IMG/VR virus record: IMGVR_UViG_3300021956_000020
Coordinates: 1 to 44,964 of that record
DNA: 44,964 nucleotides
From: a virus
Direction: 5' to 3' (one strand)
Made by a program: the position numbers and the translations under genes. Below, in pieces: positions 35,537-44,964 of this stretch (positions are counted from its first letter, which is position 1; each line of letters starts with the position of its first letter). A model generated the notes under the pieces. The model had not been told where the DNA came from, did no database searches, and saw only the letters and a list, made by a program, of their open reading frames with translations.

Positions 35537-35785
35537 TTAACAGTTCCACGCTCTTAGCGATTTATTTATACGGCTATTAGGGTCAGCAGCAGTCTTTGCA
35601 GACGTACGCTTTGCCTTCATACCTTTCATCCTACTACAAAATGAATCACGCCTTGCAGCATCTTTAGGCGTTTTAGGATTAGGAGCCGGTGGTTTTAAGT
35701 TGGCACCAGTAGTCTTTTTAAAATGCGCTCGTCCAGCAGCATTTAATCCACCACTAGGATTCTGGTATTTCTTTAGTACGCCCAT
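35537..35785 (-). CDS. DUF6321-like small protein (82 aa)
   Basis: The pattern SGGLNAAGRAHFKKTTGANLK, then RRDSFCSRMKGMK and a final LRAWNC matches a small conserved phage family annotated as DUF6321. Highly basic with two Cys (in SFCSRM and at the C-terminus). First gene of the leftward run. It seems leaderless, with TACAAT ending 6 nt before its ATG and no ribosome site. Function unknown. Confidence 0.7.
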   Translation of the reverse strand: MGVLKKYQNPSGGLNAAGRAHFKKTTGANLKPPAPNPKTPKDAARRDSFCSRMKGMKAKRTSAKTAADPNSRINKSLRAWNC

Positions 35786-35837: not shown

Positions 35838-36197
35838 ATGGCACAAAAATTAATCACATCTACTGATGACCCTTTGTACATAAACGCAATTGTTCATCTT
35901 GCTAACCTTCTTGACGAGCGTACTTTTGGAACACCTATGGGTGTATCTCCAAAATGGAAAGAGAAGTTTACTGGCAAACAGTTCTGCGAAGAGGGATGTA
36001 TAAACGGACGATGTATGGGTCACACACTCATATGCAATTTAGGCGAGATAACCAAACATCCAACATATAAGTACTTTGTATTCCATCGAGAAGATTACTC
36101 AAACGGTAAACAACAAAATGTCATTTACTTCTATGAGGAAGAAGGAAAAGCTGAGACCCAGTTTAATACCTTAAAAAGGAGAGCAAGAGATGTTTGA
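35838..36197 (+). CDS. Cys-containing protein of unknown function (119 aa)
   Basis: Contains a Cys/His cluster FCEEGCINGRCMGHTLIC around residues 50-67 that could bind zinc, followed by YKYFVFHREDYSNGKQQN and a Glu/Lys-rich end. Starts at a leaderless ATG. Overlaps the LuxR-type gene by 8 bases, which carries its ribosome site (AAAGGAG) in this gene. I do not recognise the family. Co-transcription with a DNA-binding protein suggests a regulatory pair. Confidence 0.6.
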   Translation: MAQKLITSTDDPLYINAIVHLANLLDERTFGTPMGVSPKWKEKFTGKQFCEEGCINGRCMGHTLICNLGEITKHPTYKYFVFHREDYSNGKQQNVIYFYEEEGKAETQFNTLKRRARDV

Positions 36198-36417
36198 CAA
36201 CCTCACAGTAAAAGAGAAGTACATCCTTCATTTAATGGCTGTAGATAAACTTACAGTTAAAGAGATTAGTGAGAAAGTACTCATCTCACCACGTACGGTA
36301 CATTACCATCTGCAAAACATTTACAAAAAACGAGGCTATCCAACATCGGCTAGGTCTCAGATGAAAGTTGCTTTGGAATACGTTGAATATATTAATTCAG
36401 GTATTGCAGAGAATTAG
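36190..36417 (+). CDS. LuxR/GerE-type helix-turn-helix regulator (75 aa)
   Basis: Essentially one DNA-binding domain: LTVKEKYILHLMAVDKLTVK, then EISEKVLISPRTVHYHLQNI, YKKRGYPTSARSQ. The pattern T-x-x-E, L-T-x-x-E-I, S-x-R-T-V-x-x-H-x-x-N-I-x-K-x-G is the GerE fold; no sensor domain is present. AAAGGAG precedes the ATG. It is followed directly by the candidate small RNA unit, so it may control or be controlled with it. A phage transcription factor by family; targets unknown. Confidence 0.8.
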   Translation: MFDNLTVKEKYILHLMAVDKLTVKEISEKVLISPRTVHYHLQNIYKKRGYPTSARSQMKVALEYVEYINSGIAEN

Positions 36418-36431
36418 TAATCATGTATACT
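36404..36431 (+). promoter_or_regulatory. Promoter of the candidate small RNA
   Basis: TTGCAG at 36404-36409 and TATACT at 36426-36431 separated by 16 bp, overlapping the end of the LuxR-type gene. Predicted start near 36438. No reading frame with a ribosome site follows before the terminator. Confidence 0.5.
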
Positions 36432-36437
36432 ATTTTT

Positions 36438-36526
36438 GTCTGAGTTATACCTACCTACCTACCTCGATTCAGGCTACCTTTCATGATGAAGAGCCAGCTT
36501 ACTCCCAGAGCTGGCTCTTTTAATTT
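36438..36526 (+). ncRNA. Candidate small RNA with anti-Shine-Dalgarno segments
   Basis: A unit of about 80-90 nt between a promoter and a strong intrinsic terminator. Its single-stranded-looking 5' half holds four tandem ACCT units (36449-36464) and then TACCTTTCAT (36475-36484). The 9-mer ACCTTTCAT is the exact complement of ATGAAAGGT, which stands before or between the small genes at 42642-44946, and resembles the CACCUCCUUUC tail of 16S rRNA. No start codon with a site lies before the terminator. It could instead be the 3' untranslated region of the upstream gene. Pairing is seen in sequence; regulatory action is inference. Confidence 0.5.
36490..36526 (+). terminator. Strong intrinsic terminator
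   Basis: Perfect 10-bp stem AGAGCCAGCT/AGCTGGCTCT around a 9-nt loop, followed by TTTTAATTT. Ends the rightward unit and also separates it from the convergent dUTPase gene, whose stop is at 36532. Confidence 0.9.
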
Positions 36527-36531
36527 GCCTA

Positions 36532-36957
36532 CTAGATACCTGTGCTACCTAGTCCACCAGTACGAATAGCATCACTTGTTACTGGGGTCAGGATATCTAC
36601 ATCGCACTTAGCAAATACTAACTGAGCAATGCGGTCACCTTTGTTGATTACAAACTCACGTTCTTCAATACCATTTCCAGGAACCTTTGAAATGATTACC
36701 TTTACTTCCTGCTTGTAATCTGAATCAATGATTCCTGGTGCATTCAATACAAAGACACCATACTTAGCAGCTAGACCTGACCTAGAACAAACCATAGCGT
36801 AATGCCCTTCAGGGATATCTACCGACACACCAGTGGAAACAATCACAATACTGCCGTTATAGATAGTATGCTCTGTAGTTGCGTATAGGTCAAATCCTGC
36901 TGACCCTGACGTAGCCCTAGTAGGAATGACTGCATCTTTATCTAGTAGGTTAAACAT
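36532..36957 (-). CDS. dut: dUTP diphosphatase (dUTPase)
   Basis: 141 aa from ATG 36957, which has AAGGAGAG about 7 nt upstream; a longer start at 36981 lacks a site. All five trimeric dUTPase motifs are visible: SAGFDLYA (about 19-26), CSRSGLA (58-64), NAPGIIDSDY (72-81, with the catalytic Asp), GDRIAQLVF (107-115) and the C-terminal RTGGLGSTG. Hydrolyses dUTP to dUMP, keeping uracil out of DNA and giving substrate to ThyX, whose gene overlaps it upstream by 8 bases. Confidence 0.92.
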   Translation of the reverse strand: MFNLLDKDAVIPTRATSGSAGFDLYATTEHTIYNGSIVIVSTGVSVDIPEGHYAMVCSRSGLAAKYGVFVLNAPGIIDSDYKQEVKVIISKVPGNGIEEREFVINKGDRIAQLVFAKCDVDILTPVTSDAIRTGGLGSTGI

Positions 36958-37612
36958 TTTTACTCTCCTTCGATTCTTCATTCATCTCTTCCATAACACT
37001 TGCAATAAAGGGAAACTGTATTTTGAACTCATCAAATATTTTGTTTGCCAAGTCCTCATGTTCGCTTTGCGTACCGTTACCACGCCGTACGTTCATATAG
37101 TGAATCCAATTGCGGATGTATGAGTTGGCATACAACTTAGTAGGCGCACACTCAGGTAGGATAGCCCTTGCCGTTTCAAAGGCTACGCCACATTCAATCA
37201 ACTGGTCATATGACTCTTGAATCTTGCGAACTGCATCAGAAACAATGCTGTCAGCATAAACCTGCATATCAGTTGGCAACTCGATGGATGATTGACGATT
37301 GTACGGATGCTTACCACGCATAGATGGCGCAATGATGGGTTTATCAACCTCTGCATACCTTTGACTGAACTCCTGGACACGAATACTTGAATGCCGTATG
37401 AACTGACGGCTAACCATTCTAGTCGTCTCAATTTCAATTGTCCAGTTAGCCATCTCAAATATTGACCAATGGTTATTACGCATACAGTACTTGAGAAGAC
37501 GTTTATTCTCTCGCTCTGACCTATCAAACTGTTTGCTTGACGAAACTCTTGCACAGAAACAAATATGTTCCTCAGCATCTGGAGTTTTCCATATAGTCTT
37601 AACTTCGTTCAT
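36950..37612 (-). CDS. thyX: Flavin-dependent thymidylate synthase ThyX
   Basis: 220 aa. The ThyX motif region reads FIRHSSIRVQEFSQRYAE (R-H-S-x7-S), where the usual third residue is Arg (RHRx7S); the Ser and the following Q-R-Y are kept. Other family features: WTIEIETTRMVSRQF, RAILPECAPTKLYANSY, IRNWIHYMNVRRGNGTQSEH. Makes dTMP from dUMP using FAD and methylene-tetrahydrofolate, coupled with the overlapping dUTPase. AGGT lies 7 nt before the ATG. The Arg-to-Ser change could alter activity. Confidence 0.88.
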   Translation of the reverse strand: MNEVKTIWKTPDAEEHICFCARVSSSKQFDRSERENKRLLKYCMRNNHWSIFEMANWTIEIETTRMVSRQFIRHSSIRVQEFSQRYAEVDKPIIAPSMRGKHPYNRQSSIELPTDMQVYADSIVSDAVRKIQESYDQLIECGVAFETARAILPECAPTKLYANSYIRNWIHYMNVRRGNGTQSEHEDLANKIFDEFKIQFPFIASVMEEMNEESKESKNV

Positions 37613-42622: not shown

Positions 42623-42660
42623 ATCCCCGTAAGCAAGTTACATGAAAGGTAAACAAAGAA

Positions 42661-42855
42661 ATGGCTAAGTTGCACAAATACACTGTCAAAATCAAAGTAG
42701 GTAAGAAAGTTACCCGTTACTCATTTCACGATTATGACCGAGCATTTTCTTATGCGTTCCGTAAATCGTTTAATTCTACGGGTCACTACATCGAATTAGT
42801 GGACAATTTCACCCCCACTGGTTCAAAAGTAAAACACACATTTCAGGATAGTTGA
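42661..42855 (+). CDS. Small basic protein, array gene 1 (64 aa)
   Basis: MAKLHKYTVKIKVGKKVTRY then SFHDYDRAFSYAFRKSF. Beta-type N-terminus, one amphipathic helix, polar end. ATGAAAGGT (42642-42650) ends 10 nt before the ATG and supplies AAAGG. Its stop codon lies in a perfect palindrome TTGAGAAT-C-ATTCTCAA (42852-42868). Family not recognised; probably an early accessory protein. Confidence 0.65.
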   Translation: MAKLHKYTVKIKVGKKVTRYSFHDYDRAFSYAFRKSFNSTGHYIELVDNFTPTGSKVKHTFQDS

Positions 42856-42912
42856 GAATCATTCTCAAACCAACAAAGTAAACAAAAATCAACAAAGGTA
42901 GACGGTAGTATC

Positions 42913-42950
42913 GGCAGGTATGCAAATGTGTACCTGCCAGTATGAAAGGT
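42913..42950 (+). promoter_or_regulatory. Hairpin H1 plus ATGAAAGGT ribosome-site module
   Basis: GGCAGGTATGC pairs with GTGTACCTGCC around AAAT (11 bp with two G-U pairs). Three nt later comes ATGAAAGGT (42942-42950), 7 nt before the next ATG. One of four equivalent modules; compare 43609, 44300 and 44908. Confidence 0.7.
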
Positions 42951-42957
42951 AAACAAA

Positions 42958-43275
42958 ATGAGAGTAATTGAGAAACAAATGATGCAGGCTATTCGGCAGG
43001 GTAAATCCTGGAAATTGGATAATACGGAAGTTCGTCACATAGACGCAGACGAAAGTAGAATCACCCTTGTGTATCTACACAACAATCTAATTGCCGAAAT
43101 AGGCTTGACTAGAATTACCTTGTGGAATCGTGGGTATTCTACTCAGACAACGAAATCACGTATCAATGCCATACTGTCGGGTATAGGGTCAGGTTTGCAC
43201 GTATACCAGAAATCCTATGTGTGGCACATAGACGGTACGCAGTGGGTAGACGGGACAGAATATTTCATACGCTAA
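42958..43275 (+). CDS. Conserved phage protein, TTKSR family (105 aa)
   Basis: MRVIEKQMMQAIRQGKSWKL, then VYLHNNLIAEIG, RGYSTQTTKSRINAIL and a C-terminal VYQKSYVWHIDG. This is a small family I recognise from many phages (M-R-x-I-E-x-x-M-x-x-A-I, Y-L-H-x-N-x-I-A, T-T-K-S-R-x-N-A). No function is established. Preceded by hairpin H1 and ATGAAAGGT. Confidence 0.75.
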   Translation: MRVIEKQMMQAIRQGKSWKLDNTEVRHIDADESRITLVYLHNNLIAEIGLTRITLWNRGYSTQTTKSRINAILSGIGSGLHVYQKSYVWHIDGTQWVDGTEYFIR

Positions 43276-43293
43276 CAGTGTGATATTTTACAC

Positions 43294-43322
43294 TTGTCAT
43301 ATACCGTACGGTATGTAATACT
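43294..43322 (+). promoter_or_regulatory. Array promoter 2 with perfect palindrome in the spacer
   Basis: TTGTCA (43294-43299), 17 bp, AATACT (43317-43322). The spacer holds the perfect 14-bp palindrome ATACCGTACGGTAT (43301-43314). Start of transcription predicted near 43329. Drives the gene at 43343. Confidence 0.7.
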
Positions 43323-43342
43323 CTTATTGAAGGTAGGAAATT

Positions 43343-43597
43343 ATGGAAACTGTAGATGAAATTCTAGCAAGCGTTGGCAAGGTATGCAATTACCCTGCGC
43401 ATTATGTAAATGGTGAATTCGACTTTGTAGGTAGACCAGATTTTGATGCTGACAGCGATTTTGCACGTTGTAGAAATTGTAATGTGTGGGGTACTTGTTA
43501 CGAGGTAACAATCCACCATATACCGTCAAGTGATTACGATATATGCAATATATGCGAGTCGTGTATTTACAAATCAGAGTATGGCGATACTGAATAG
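43343..43597 (+). CDS. Putative zinc-binding protein, array gene 3 (84 aa)
   Basis: Cys-rich: VCNYPAHY near 14, then ARCRNCNVWGTC (about 49-60) and DICNICESC (about 70-78). The CxxC pairs suggest a zinc-ribbon-like fold. Ribosome site is the variant TGAAGGTAGG (43328-43337). Unknown function. Composition resembles the other Cys-rich array gene at 43775. Confidence 0.65.
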   Translation: METVDEILASVGKVCNYPAHYVNGEFDFVGRPDFDADSDFARCRNCNVWGTCYEVTIHHIPSSDYDICNICESCIYKSEYGDTE

Positions 43598-43650
43598 ATG
43601 AAAGGTTAGCAGGGTATGCGCCTATGTATACCCTGCACATTATGAAAGGT
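43598..43650 (+). promoter_or_regulatory. ATGAAAGGT - hairpin H2 - ATGAAAGGT module
   Basis: The 9-mer occurs at 43598-43606, directly after a stop codon and with no gene behind it. Next is the hairpin GCAGGGTATGC/GTATACCCTGC (43609-43636, 11 bp, loop GCCTAT), then the 9-mer again at 43642-43650. This duplicate arrangement shows that hairpin and 9-mer travel as a repeat unit. Confidence 0.7.
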
Positions 43651-43665
43651 TAGCAGGTGGTAGTG

Positions 43666-43770
43666 ATGTTGATGTCTGATTTGTTTATGGCGTTATGTAT
43701 CTATGCATTCCCAGTATCTATTTGGTGCACATCGTTTTGCATTTCTGAATTGATGGTGAAAGGTAAATAG
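43666..43770 (+). CDS. 34-aa membrane micro-protein, array gene 4
   Basis: Reads MLMSDLFMALCIYAFPVSIW and ends ISELMVKGK. Residues 6-27 form one hydrophobic membrane-spanning segment with a basic C-terminus. AGGTGG lies 5 nt before the ATG, and ATGAAAGGT further upstream. Its last codons contain TGAAAGGT (43757-43764), which serves as the ribosome site for the next gene. Function unknown; possibly a membrane-acting host takeover or exclusion peptide. Confidence 0.55.
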   Translation: MLMSDLFMALCIYAFPVSIWCTSFCISELMVKGK

Positions 43771-43774
43771 ACCG

Positions 43775-44041
43775 ATGATAAAAGAGAATTTCGCATACAA
43801 AGTAGACGCAAGTAAACCCGTCCCAACGGTAGCATTTCCAGGATGTTATCCCATCTATTACATAACGCGCGATTGTGTCTGCCTATGCCCAGATTGTGTG
43901 AATAACAACCTGAAATTATGCGCTGATACCGACAACGATAATTGGTTTGTAGAAATATCAGATGTCAATTGGGAAAATCCCGAATTATACTGTGACAATT
44001 GCGAGTGTCGTATACCATCGGCGTACGCTGATAACGAGTAG
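43775..44041 (+). CDS. Cys-rich conserved phage protein, array gene 5 (88 aa)
   Basis: YPIYYITRDCVCLCPDCVNN, then DNWFVEISDVNWENPELYCD, NCECRIPSAYADNE. The plan Y-Y-x-T, C-x-x-C, then D-V-N-W-E-x-P-x-L-Y-C-x-x-C-x-x-R-I-x-S-A-Y is one I know from many small proteins of actinobacterial and other phages. The four-Cys set suggests zinc. AAAGGT ends 10 nt before the ATG. Function unknown. Confidence 0.72.
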   Translation: MIKENFAYKVDASKPVPTVAFPGCYPIYYITRDCVCLCPDCVNNNLKLCADTDNDNWFVEISDVNWENPELYCDNCECRIPSAYADNE

Positions 44042-44058
44042 ATGAAAGGTTAGAACAA

Positions 44059-44286
44059 ATGGAAATTCAGACGTTGGAAAATGCACATCAAATGCTAGGT
44101 CATGTCATGCAGAATTTACGTAACGTGCAACAAGCAATTACTACGGTATGTGCAGACGTACCGGAATTGTCCGATAGTTTTACTGAGTGTATCGGTTTGA
44201 TGTATTCACAATTGGCGGAAGTATCGGATTTCATTATTGACCCAGATGTGGAAAATGCGTGTGAAGGTAACCACGTAATAGGGTAA
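44059..44286 (+). CDS. Small helical protein, array gene 6 (75 aa)
   Basis: MEIQTLENAHQMLGHVMQNL, then RNVQQAITTVCADVPELSDS and MYSQLAEVSDFII. Acidic, almost fully helical, suggesting a two- or three-helix bundle. ATGAAAGGT (44042-44050) directly follows the previous stop and ends 8 nt before the ATG. No family recognised. Confidence 0.65.
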   Translation: MEIQTLENAHQMLGHVMQNLRNVQQAITTVCADVPELSDSFTECIGLMYSQLAEVSDFIIDPDVENACEGNHVIG

Positions 44287-44299
44287 CAGGTAGGCAGAT

Positions 44300-44338
44300 G
44301 TAGGGTGTGCATACCGTATACCCTACCAAATGAAAGGT
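44300..44338 (+). promoter_or_regulatory. Hairpin H3 plus ATGAAAGGT module
   Basis: GTAGGGTGTGC (44300-44310) pairs with GTATACCCTAC (44316-44326) around ATACC (11 bp, two G-U). ATGAAAGGT follows at 44330-44338, 8 nt before the next ATG. Confidence 0.7.
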
Positions 44339-44346
44339 GGGACATT

Positions 44347-44475
44347 ATGTGCAAGAAATCATTTGATGCAGGTAGACGTGCTAGGCGTGCAATAGAGAAT
44401 TTTGTAGTATCAGTGTTCACACTTGGCGCATTCTATATAATCTATTGTGGGTTGTGGATTCTACAGGGTAGATAG
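44347..44475 (+). CDS. 42-aa membrane micro-protein, array gene 7
   Basis: Reads MCKKSFDAGRRARRAIENFV, then SVFTLGAFYIIYCGLWIL and ends QGR. A basic N-terminus is followed by one transmembrane helix (residues about 19-39), predicted N-in/C-out. GAAAGGTGGG is placed 8 nt before the ATG. Function unknown; the second membrane micro-protein of the array. Confidence 0.6.
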   Translation: MCKKSFDAGRRARRAIENFVVSVFTLGAFYIIYCGLWILQGR

Positions 44476-44492
44476 AATCCAGGCGTAGGGTA

Positions 44493-44531
44493 TACGGTAG
44501 TGTGCAATATCTCACATACACACATACCGTA
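44493..44531. promoter_or_regulatory. Interrupted inverted repeat overlapping array promoter 3
   Basis: TACGGTAGTGTG (44493-44504) pairs with CACAC-A-TACCGTA (44519-44531), 12 bp with one bulged A. It overlaps the -35 region and part of the spacer of the promoter at 44517-44545. Could be an attenuator-like RNA structure at the end of the 42-aa gene or a second operator. Confidence 0.45.
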
Positions 44532-44545
44532 CAATCTGGTAGACT
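44517..44545 (+). promoter_or_regulatory. Array promoter 3 with operator half-site
   Basis: TACACA (44517-44522), 17 bp, TAGACT (44540-44545). The spacer begins CATACCGTACA, which keeps the left half of the ATACCGTACGGTAT palindrome but not the right half. Drives the gene at 44604. Confidence 0.5.
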
Positions 44546-44564
44546 AGTAGTGTAGATGGATGCA

Positions 44565-44588
44565 GGGTATCAATACCCGATGAAAGGT
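44565..44588 (+). promoter_or_regulatory. Short hairpin H4 plus ATGAAAGGT
   Basis: GGGTA-TCAA-TACCC (44565-44578), 5 bp, then ATGAAAGGT (44580-44588). A second site, AGGTAGGTA, lies nearer the ATG at 44604. A reduced version of the module; both sites are complementary to the candidate small RNA. Confidence 0.6.
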
Positions 44589-44603
44589 AACAGGTAGGTA
44601 ACT

Positions 44604-44894
44604 ATGGAACGATATAACGGCTGGGCGAATTACGAAACGTGGAACGTAGGGCTTTGGTTTATGGATGATATGGTATCTATCGCATCCGATAATGGCGAAC
44701 CAGTCGATGCAGACTGGTGCCAGGATTTCGTAGATGAATATATGAATAGCGAATACCGAGGTATCAATACCGGATTCATCGGTGATGTTATAAATGGGTT
44801 TATACGTTCCATAGACTGGCACGAAATCGCAAGTCACGTAAACGATACAGCAGAATTAACCAAAGACGAAGACGAAGACGAAGACAACGAGTAG
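44604..44894 (+). CDS. DUF7249-like YETWNV protein, array gene 8 (96 aa)
   Basis: Begins MERYNGWANYETWNVGLWFM; the N-G-x-x-N-Y-E-T-W-N-V-x-L-W motif defines a small widespread phage family (DUF7249 or similar). The middle (DWCQDFVDEYMNSEY) and SIDWHEIASHVND match its usual ending; the extreme C-terminus is an acidic EDEDEDNE run. Function unknown. Preceded by AGGTAGGTA and ATGAAAGGT. Confidence 0.75.
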   Translation: MERYNGWANYETWNVGLWFMDDMVSIASDNGEPVDADWCQDFVDEYMNSEYRGINTGFIGDVINGFIRSIDWHEIASHVNDTAELTKDEDEDEDNE

Positions 44895-44907
44895 ATAGGT
44901 AGGTAAC

Positions 44908-44946
44908 GGTAGGGTATGCAAGCGTGTACCCTACCAGATGAAAGGT
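44908..44946 (+). promoter_or_regulatory. Hairpin H5 plus ATGAAAGGT module
   Basis: GGTAGGGTATGC (44908-44919) pairs with GTGTACCCTACC (44924-44935) around AAGC (12 bp, two G-U). ATGAAAGGT follows at 44938-44946. The gene it serves lies beyond the window, so the array continues to the right. Confidence 0.7.
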
Positions 44947-44964
44947 ATCTAACAGACTGATACC

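Follow-up and report, generated by a model that had tools for sequence, protein, structure and literature searches.

The 36438-36526 region of a 44,964-base IMG/VR virus record from an uncultured phage (the whole of which is hereafter called the window) appears to encode a trans-acting phage small RNA that would mask the Shine-Dalgarno (SD) sequences of the early genes throughout their regulon, a reading to which we assign a probability of roughly 70% on the basis of sequence comparisons. By computation, the RNA gene and its fold are conserved in related phages, the complementarity of the RNA to its own lineage is restricted to early leaders, and the RNA co-varies with the ribosome-binding site (RBS) of those leaders. 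A single RNA would thus probably shut down the translation of the entire set of early genes.

Direct reading of positions 36404-36526 gives TTGCAG, 16 nt, TATACT and then GTCTGAGTTATACCTACCTACCTACCTCGATTCAGGCTACCTTTCATGATGAAGAGCCAGCTTACTCCCAGAGCTGGCTCTTTTAATTT, and the promoter TTGCAG-N16-TATACT claimed in a first-pass annotation of this DNA is indeed present on the plus strand at 36404-36431 (TTGCAG at 36404-36409, TATACT at 36426-36431) as a sigma70-type promoter whose position is conserved in relatives. It was absent from the output of a simple promoter scan of the window because of its weak -35 box. The promoter overlaps the end of a 75-aa LuxR/GerE-type HTH gene (36190-36417, plus strand; Pfam GerE, 1.8e-10; synteny in relatives), and by gene layout a dUTPase gene (36532-36981) follows in convergent orientation. 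The predicted +1 (36438) is 7 nt past the -10 box and is the first base of the 5' stem of a candidate small RNA of about 89 nt with two hairpins (36438-36526, plus strand). Its minimum free energy is -29.2 vs -14.4 for shuffled sequences (z -5.5). The 5' hairpin (stem 36438-36446/36466-36474, plus strand) carries the first putative anti-RBS module in its 19-nt loop ATACCTACCTACCTACCTC, which has an unpaired probability of about 0.9 in the fold model and holds the four tandem ACCT units previously noticed (36449-36464). The second module is the linker TACCTTTCATGAT (36475-36487, plus strand), unpaired in the same model, with TACCTTTCAT at 36475-36484. The intrinsic terminator hairpin (36488-36526, plus strand) has the 7-nt loop ACTCCCA and a U-rich tail in its predicted fold; the previously described terminator was thus recovered, but not its perfect 10-bp stem, since the predicted stem has 13 pairs, of which 11 are Watson-Crick and form an unbroken or near-unbroken row. 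A small protein as the product of the locus was rejected, since the short frames that are present are not retained in relatives, in agreement with the annotated lack of a supported reading frame. When the sequence was searched against Rfam 15 with cmscan, no family reached the gathering score, and the one weak match, to an unrelated leader, was at chance level.

Relatives were found in IMG/VR by searches with the HTH protein and its 119-aa neighbour. About 20 related contigs carry the RNA element in the same slot, directly behind the HTH stop, and in all of these slots a -10 box, TATACT or TATAAT, lies directly 3' of that stop. A TTG-type -35 box is found 16 nt upstream of the -10 box in groups 1, 2, 2b and 2c of these relatives, the promoters reading TTGCCA-N16-TATAAT, TTGCCA-N16-TATACT or, in contig L097, the consensus TTGACA-N16-TATACT. 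In groups 1-3 the RNA starts with GTCT exactly at the expected +1. The homologues share a fold in which the loop of the 5' hairpin measures 12-19 nt, the linker 10-18 nt and the C-rich loop of the terminator hairpin 7-8 nt, and their minimum free energies give z values of -4.6 to -6.7 against shuffles, none of 500 shuffles being as low. Pairing in the 5' stem is retained across groups through U-G to U-A and G-C to G-U changes, and the fifth stem pair shows a two-sided change, from G-C to A-U, in group 3. Groups 1 and 3 have a good U-tract at the terminator and groups 2/2c a poor one (CTCCTTATT, CTCCTCATTT), so that the RNAs of the latter may end elsewhere. In groups 2/2c (L013:4340-4364 and homologues) a 3' tail, CUCCUCCUUAUU or CUCCUCCUCAUUU, that is nearly the 16S anti-SD replaces the U-tract. 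A search of genome contigs returned neither a relative nor a host copy of the RNA hairpin, and the portal and capsid matches in cultured phages were about 22% identical and mixed (Arthrobacter, Paenibacillus and cyanophage).

The early-gene RBS of the lineage is GAAAGGTAGGTAGGT-ATG, and its complement is present in the loop and the linker of the RNA; the linker TACCTTTCATGAT is complementary to the ATGAAAGGTA that is repeated in the array at 42642-44946. The window holds 10 copies of ATGAAAGGT vs 0.44 expected, eight of them on the plus strand at 42642-44946, one antisense to the RNA and one in a DUF6321 gene; the earlier counts of eight exact ATGAAAGGT copies in the array and of four extended to ATGAAAGGTA were borne out. 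The tenth copy, within the DUF6321 coding sequence (35621-35629, minus strand), is probably incidental. All the predicted targets of the array lie on the plus strand. They comprise the RBS ATGAAAGGTAAACAAAGAA-ATG (42642-42663; duplex -17.6 kcal/mol), the RBS of a Kyano_Gp96-like gene (Pfam) below an inverted repeat (42942-42960; -20.3 kcal/mol), two ATGAAAGGTTAG copies flanking an inverted repeat (43598-43670; -19.6 and -26.9 kcal/mol), the RBSs TGAAAGGTAAATAGACCG-ATG (43757-43777; -14.3 kcal/mol), ATGAAAGGTTAGAACAA-ATG (44042-44061; -15.3 kcal/mol) and ATGAAAGGTGGGACATT-ATG (44330-44350; -16.0 kcal/mol), the two-part target ATGAAAGGTA-AC-AGGTAGGTA upstream of a DUF7249 gene (44580-44606; -24.8 kcal/mol) and, at the window edge, AGGTAGGTA, an inverted repeat and then ATGAAAGGTA (44897-44947; -25.2 and -16.7 kcal/mol). 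The two-part target pairs with both the linker and the loop in the duplex prediction, its AGGTAGGTA lying at 44592 in the correct antiparallel order, as had been proposed for the ACCT repeats. Imperfect inverted repeats (e.g. GGCAGGTATGC..GTACCTGCC and GTAGGGTATGC..GTACCCTACC) were also observed within 42880-44946, just upstream of ATGAAAGGT in several array leaders.

The array leaders therefore belong to the target set, as first suggested, but the set is not limited to the array, and most of it lies past the window end. In the relative G001, more early genes continue past the point that matches the end of the window, and the near-complete relatives (G001, 61 kb; G003, 56 kb; G004, 59 kb) contain dozens of early genes, many of them with GAAAGGTAGGTAGGT. 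The window array corresponds to the edge of a long early/replication module that in the relatives includes DnaB helicase, ERF recombinase, DNA methylase and many small genes. The RBSs of this module are typically GAAAGGTAGGTAGGT-ATG or a portion of it, whereas structural genes use ordinary AAGGAG-like SDs. The AAAGGUAGGU contained in the early RBS reads as the ideal SD AAAGGAGGU with one inserted U. In some early leaders of G001 (1-1300 and 60600-61108; L078, L081), a TATACT box (GTATACTAGT) ends a few nucleotides before ATGAAAGG, which suggests that these genes have separate promoters with very short 5' leaders starting near the RNA target.

Duplex energies were calculated for the RNA of each group against leaders and compared with those of 200 dinucleotide-shuffled RNAs. 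With start codons taken from a simple ORF caller, and with the "early" and "late" classes inferred from gene content, position and strand, the early leaders of the window gave a mean duplex energy of -17.4 kcal/mol vs -11.6 kcal/mol for the shuffled RNAs, none of the 200 shuffles being as good as the real RNA. The z values for early leaders were -4.8 to -5.2 in groups 1 and 2 (G001 -4.9, G003 -5.2, G004 -5.0), -3.2 in G006 (group 2b) and -2.4 in G007 (group 3), and those for late leaders, between -0.2 and +1.3, revealed no pairing signal. At least 7 contiguous complementary nucleotides were present in 6/6 early vs 1/25 late leaders of the window (p=9.5e-6), in 26/38 vs 1/28 leaders of G001 and in 8/8 vs 2/27 of G006, with smaller margins in G003 (15/31 vs 4/25) and G004 (20/38 vs 5/26); the complementary runs reach up to 16 nt. 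These data, including the comparison of real and shuffled RNAs that the first-pass annotation had named as a check, agree with its statement that such a match is unlikely to arise by chance.

Comparison of the related phages revealed that the RBS and the RNA change together, both between groups 1 and 2b and between groups 1-2 and group 3. This is the opposite of the refuting case named in the first-pass annotation, a repeated site that changes in related phages without a change in the RNA. In group 1 the leaders carry ATGAAAGG and the RNA CCTTTCAT, and in group 2b the leaders carry TAGAAAGG and the RNA CCTTTCTA. ATGAAAGG is concentrated in the array of the window (8/10 copies) and on the early strand of G001 (12/13); it is missing from the early strand in group 2b (G006, G009), where the leaders contain TAGAAAGG and AAAGGTTA and the linker TAACCTTTCTA matches the TAGAAAGGTTA of its own leaders. 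The larger change separates groups 1-2, in which the RBS AGGTAGGT faces ACCTACCT in the RNA, from group 3 (G007, portal about 81% identical), in which GGAGGGG and AGGGGTT face CCCCTCC and AACCCCT. The group 3 RNA has no ACCT repeat; its 5' loop presents CCCCTCC and its terminator loop ACCCCTTC. The commonest leader 7-mers of G007 include AGGGGTT (10/11 copies on the early strand) and GGAGGGG (6/7), one group 3 leader reads TTGGAGGGGTTCA-ATG, and AGGTAGGT is missing from the early strand. When matches of at least 7 nt to its own RNA were counted, G007 showed 13/34 early vs 2/23 late leaders (p=0.012), a moderate effect given that 2/200 shuffles were as good; exact 8-mer counts with naive starts had given no excess of leader matches in group 3, and these statistics are to be read as obtained after the measure was switched to energies and 7-nt runs following that null result. 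The exchange of RNAs was consistent with this change in specificity: the group 1-2b RNAs made 0-3 matches on the 34 group 3 early leaders, and on the early leaders of the other groups the group 3 RNA scored 0/6, 3/38, 3/31, 3/38 and 0/8. The ACCT RNAs of groups 1-2b are largely interchangeable on one another's leaders, and therefore the strong change in specificity amounts to essentially one event (to group 3) plus a smaller change in the linker.

In group 4 (G017, L150:4180-4460), an RNA-like element with the loop AACCUAACCUCCUAA / AACCTAACCTCCTAA lies behind the HTH gene, and some leaders carry AGGAGGTT. This by-eye match is suggestive only and was rejected as independent proof of co-variation, the statistics in the truncated early region of G017 being not significant (z -1.1; 3/17 early vs 3/26 late leaders). 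The near-canonical AGGAGGTT early RBS is possibly the ancestral state of the system. Target reading by the terminator loop UACUCCCAG, which would be a third module in groups 1-2, was likewise rejected because TGGGAG sites have no clear enrichment before early genes. Taken together, the locus displays the properties of a regulatory sRNA gene, that is, sequence signatures of its own promoter and terminator (with a weak tail in groups 2/2c) and no conserved reading frame, a conserved structure with unpaired seed regions, and a target complementarity that exceeds chance and co-varies with the targets, group 4 being not significant. Co-variation and the conserved promoter and fold support the annotated view that the RNA is directed at many early SDs, and would be compatible with masking and repression.

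Because the pairing evidence is neutral as to the sign of the effect, the pairing could be real and yet serve another purpose. The abundant early mRNAs might sequester the RNA like a sponge and free it to act on host or late mRNAs only when early transcription declines, or the pairing might stabilise or activate the early mRNAs; the inverted repeats just upstream of the RBS in many array leaders could complicate regulation. The two versions together are unlikely, as the pairing covers the SD a few nucleotides before the start codon, where a block of initiation is expected, and a search for late-gene complementarity found none. Less probable still is that the RNA imitates the 16S anti-SD tail, an alternative offered by the first-pass annotation, and in this way dampens host translation in general, the match to the phage RBS being a by-product of a C-rich sequence. 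The ACCU and CCUCC modules are anti-SD-like, and near-matches to the 16S end are seen in the loop AACCUAACCUCCUAA of group 4 and the tail CUCCUUAUU of group 2. Nevertheless, the mimic fits the data less well because the complementarity is lineage-specific: shuffles that preserve composition fail to match, the co-variation follows the lineages, and no excess of pairing is seen on late leaders, whose SDs are ordinary. On their own early leaders, the RNAs of groups 1-3 average -14.3 to -20.1 kcal/mol vs -5.9 to -9.3 kcal/mol for the 16S tail. The position of the element directly behind the HTH stop codon, with a terminator before a convergent gene, would also suit a mere 3' untranslated end of the HTH operon with incidental complementarity; we consider this very improbable, the reading being largely refuted by the co-variation with distant loci and ruled out in its incidental form by fold and co-variation, in addition to the conserved 16-nt promoter spacing and loops and the 5' stem that begins at the predicted +1. 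Finally, the minus strand reads ATGAAAGGTAGCC...AGGTAGGTAGGTAGGTATAAC, as would the RBS of a minus-strand gene, an idea with next to no likelihood that the gene layout refutes, since the frame behind that ATG closes within a few codons, the genes farther along are encoded on the plus strand, and the promoter, fold and terminator conserved in relatives are all plus-strand features.

According to the preferred reading, transcription of the sRNA would begin at its own sigma70-type promoter, located where the HTH gene ends, and would finish at the intrinsic terminator. It would present two or three anti-RBS modules, in the 5' hairpin loop, in the linker and, in group 3, also in the terminator loop, and the linker would pair with GAAAGG and/or the ACCU loop with the AGGU repeats of early leaders. 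This antiparallel pairing would cover the SD just before the start codon of the many early and replication genes that share GAAAGGTAGGTAGGT, so that 30S binding would be blocked and the synthesis of early proteins lowered. Late structural genes with ordinary SDs would be spared, and host genes probably too. Because the early regulon is addressed as a whole, the most likely occasion for such a control would be the early-to-late switch; a role of the RNA in immunity against a second phage is possible.

Bacterial trans-acting sRNAs that mask SDs combine a short RNA, an exposed pairing segment and a terminator hairpin. The phage RNA shares their mechanistic logic, but they regulate assorted host genes, whereas the candidate described here addresses the repeated, lineage-specific RBS of its own early regulon and co-varies with it. 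Among phage RNAs, the 77-nt c4 antisense RNA of P1/P7 prevents translation by annealing to the region around a ribosome binding site, its complementary segments being probably located in loops (PMC12197685). The RNA proposed here from sequence resembles c4 in its RBS-blocking chemistry and loop-borne complementary segments, and differs from it in that c4 acts on the ant mRNA in immunity and the targets here would be the RBS motif of many unlinked early genes; cmscan against Rfam 15 matched the RNA at 36438-36526 to neither c4 nor any other catalogued family at the gathering score. As to scope, T4 RegA acts on the translation initiation regions of about 30 mRNAs and T4 RegB on the GGAG SDs of early mRNAs (PMC3014915). 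Like RegA, the candidate would be one factor for many early mRNAs; however, RegA and RegB are proteins, and the candidate factor here is not a RegA-family protein but an RNA without a conserved reading frame that would read the RBS by base pairing.

A likeness on the target side is found in the Cluster K mycobacteriophages, in which a conserved motif at the RBS position (SAS) precedes many non-structural genes, half of them with upstream inverted repeats (ESAS); whether its trans factor is an RNA or a protein was not settled in 2011 (PMC3203893). The early vs late contrast in our phages likewise reveals a single RBS-position motif limited to non-structural genes, and the inverted repeats of the window array resemble those of ESAS. 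The target sides are otherwise alike, but the motif is GGGATAGGAGCCC in Cluster K and AGGTAGGT here; early leaders carry GAAAGGTAGGT or GGAGGGG/AGGGGTT rather than the SAS repeat GGGATAGGAGCCC. In Anaya, a 385-bp non-coding gap (59682-60066; L156:35683-36067) that is conserved in 177 Cluster K records contains a lone opposite-strand SAS in a hairpin loop and a -10-like TTTTAGACT box. This anti-SAS hairpin loop was found in 4/11 Cluster K phages (Anaya, Ganymede, Niklas and Amelie), and it is altered or absent in Hammy, Cain, Shandong1, Yuna, Scarlett, Keshu and MacnCheese, with SAS unchanged in those checked. An anti-SAS RNA was therefore rejected as a general parallel, and the gap is taken as a lead and not as support, because Yuna, Cain and Hammy keep a fixed SAS despite the loss or alteration of the loop.

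Searches of the open-access literature revealed no phage RNA that targets an RBS motif common to early genes, although an earlier description is possible. Global control of the early-to-late transition at the level of translation is known in phages from proteins (T4 RegA and RegB), and here it would apparently be exerted by a single RNA of about 89 nt. Natural compensatory changes are the evidence that this RNA may read a repeated, lineage-specific SD variant that precedes many genes of the phage itself. We regard it as possible, though somewhat less likely than not, that the private early RBS and the phage RNA are a co-evolving lock and key, in which ribosomes still read an SD variant with one additional U and a single RNA could turn off the entire early regulon in translation while late and host mRNAs are spared. 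Such a system would provide a ready-made orthogonal RBS/RNA pair. It also offers a testable idea for phages with a private early RBS motif, e.g. the Cluster K mycobacteriophages: if the reading is true, similar anti-RBS RNAs may be what reads the start-associated sequences of other phages.
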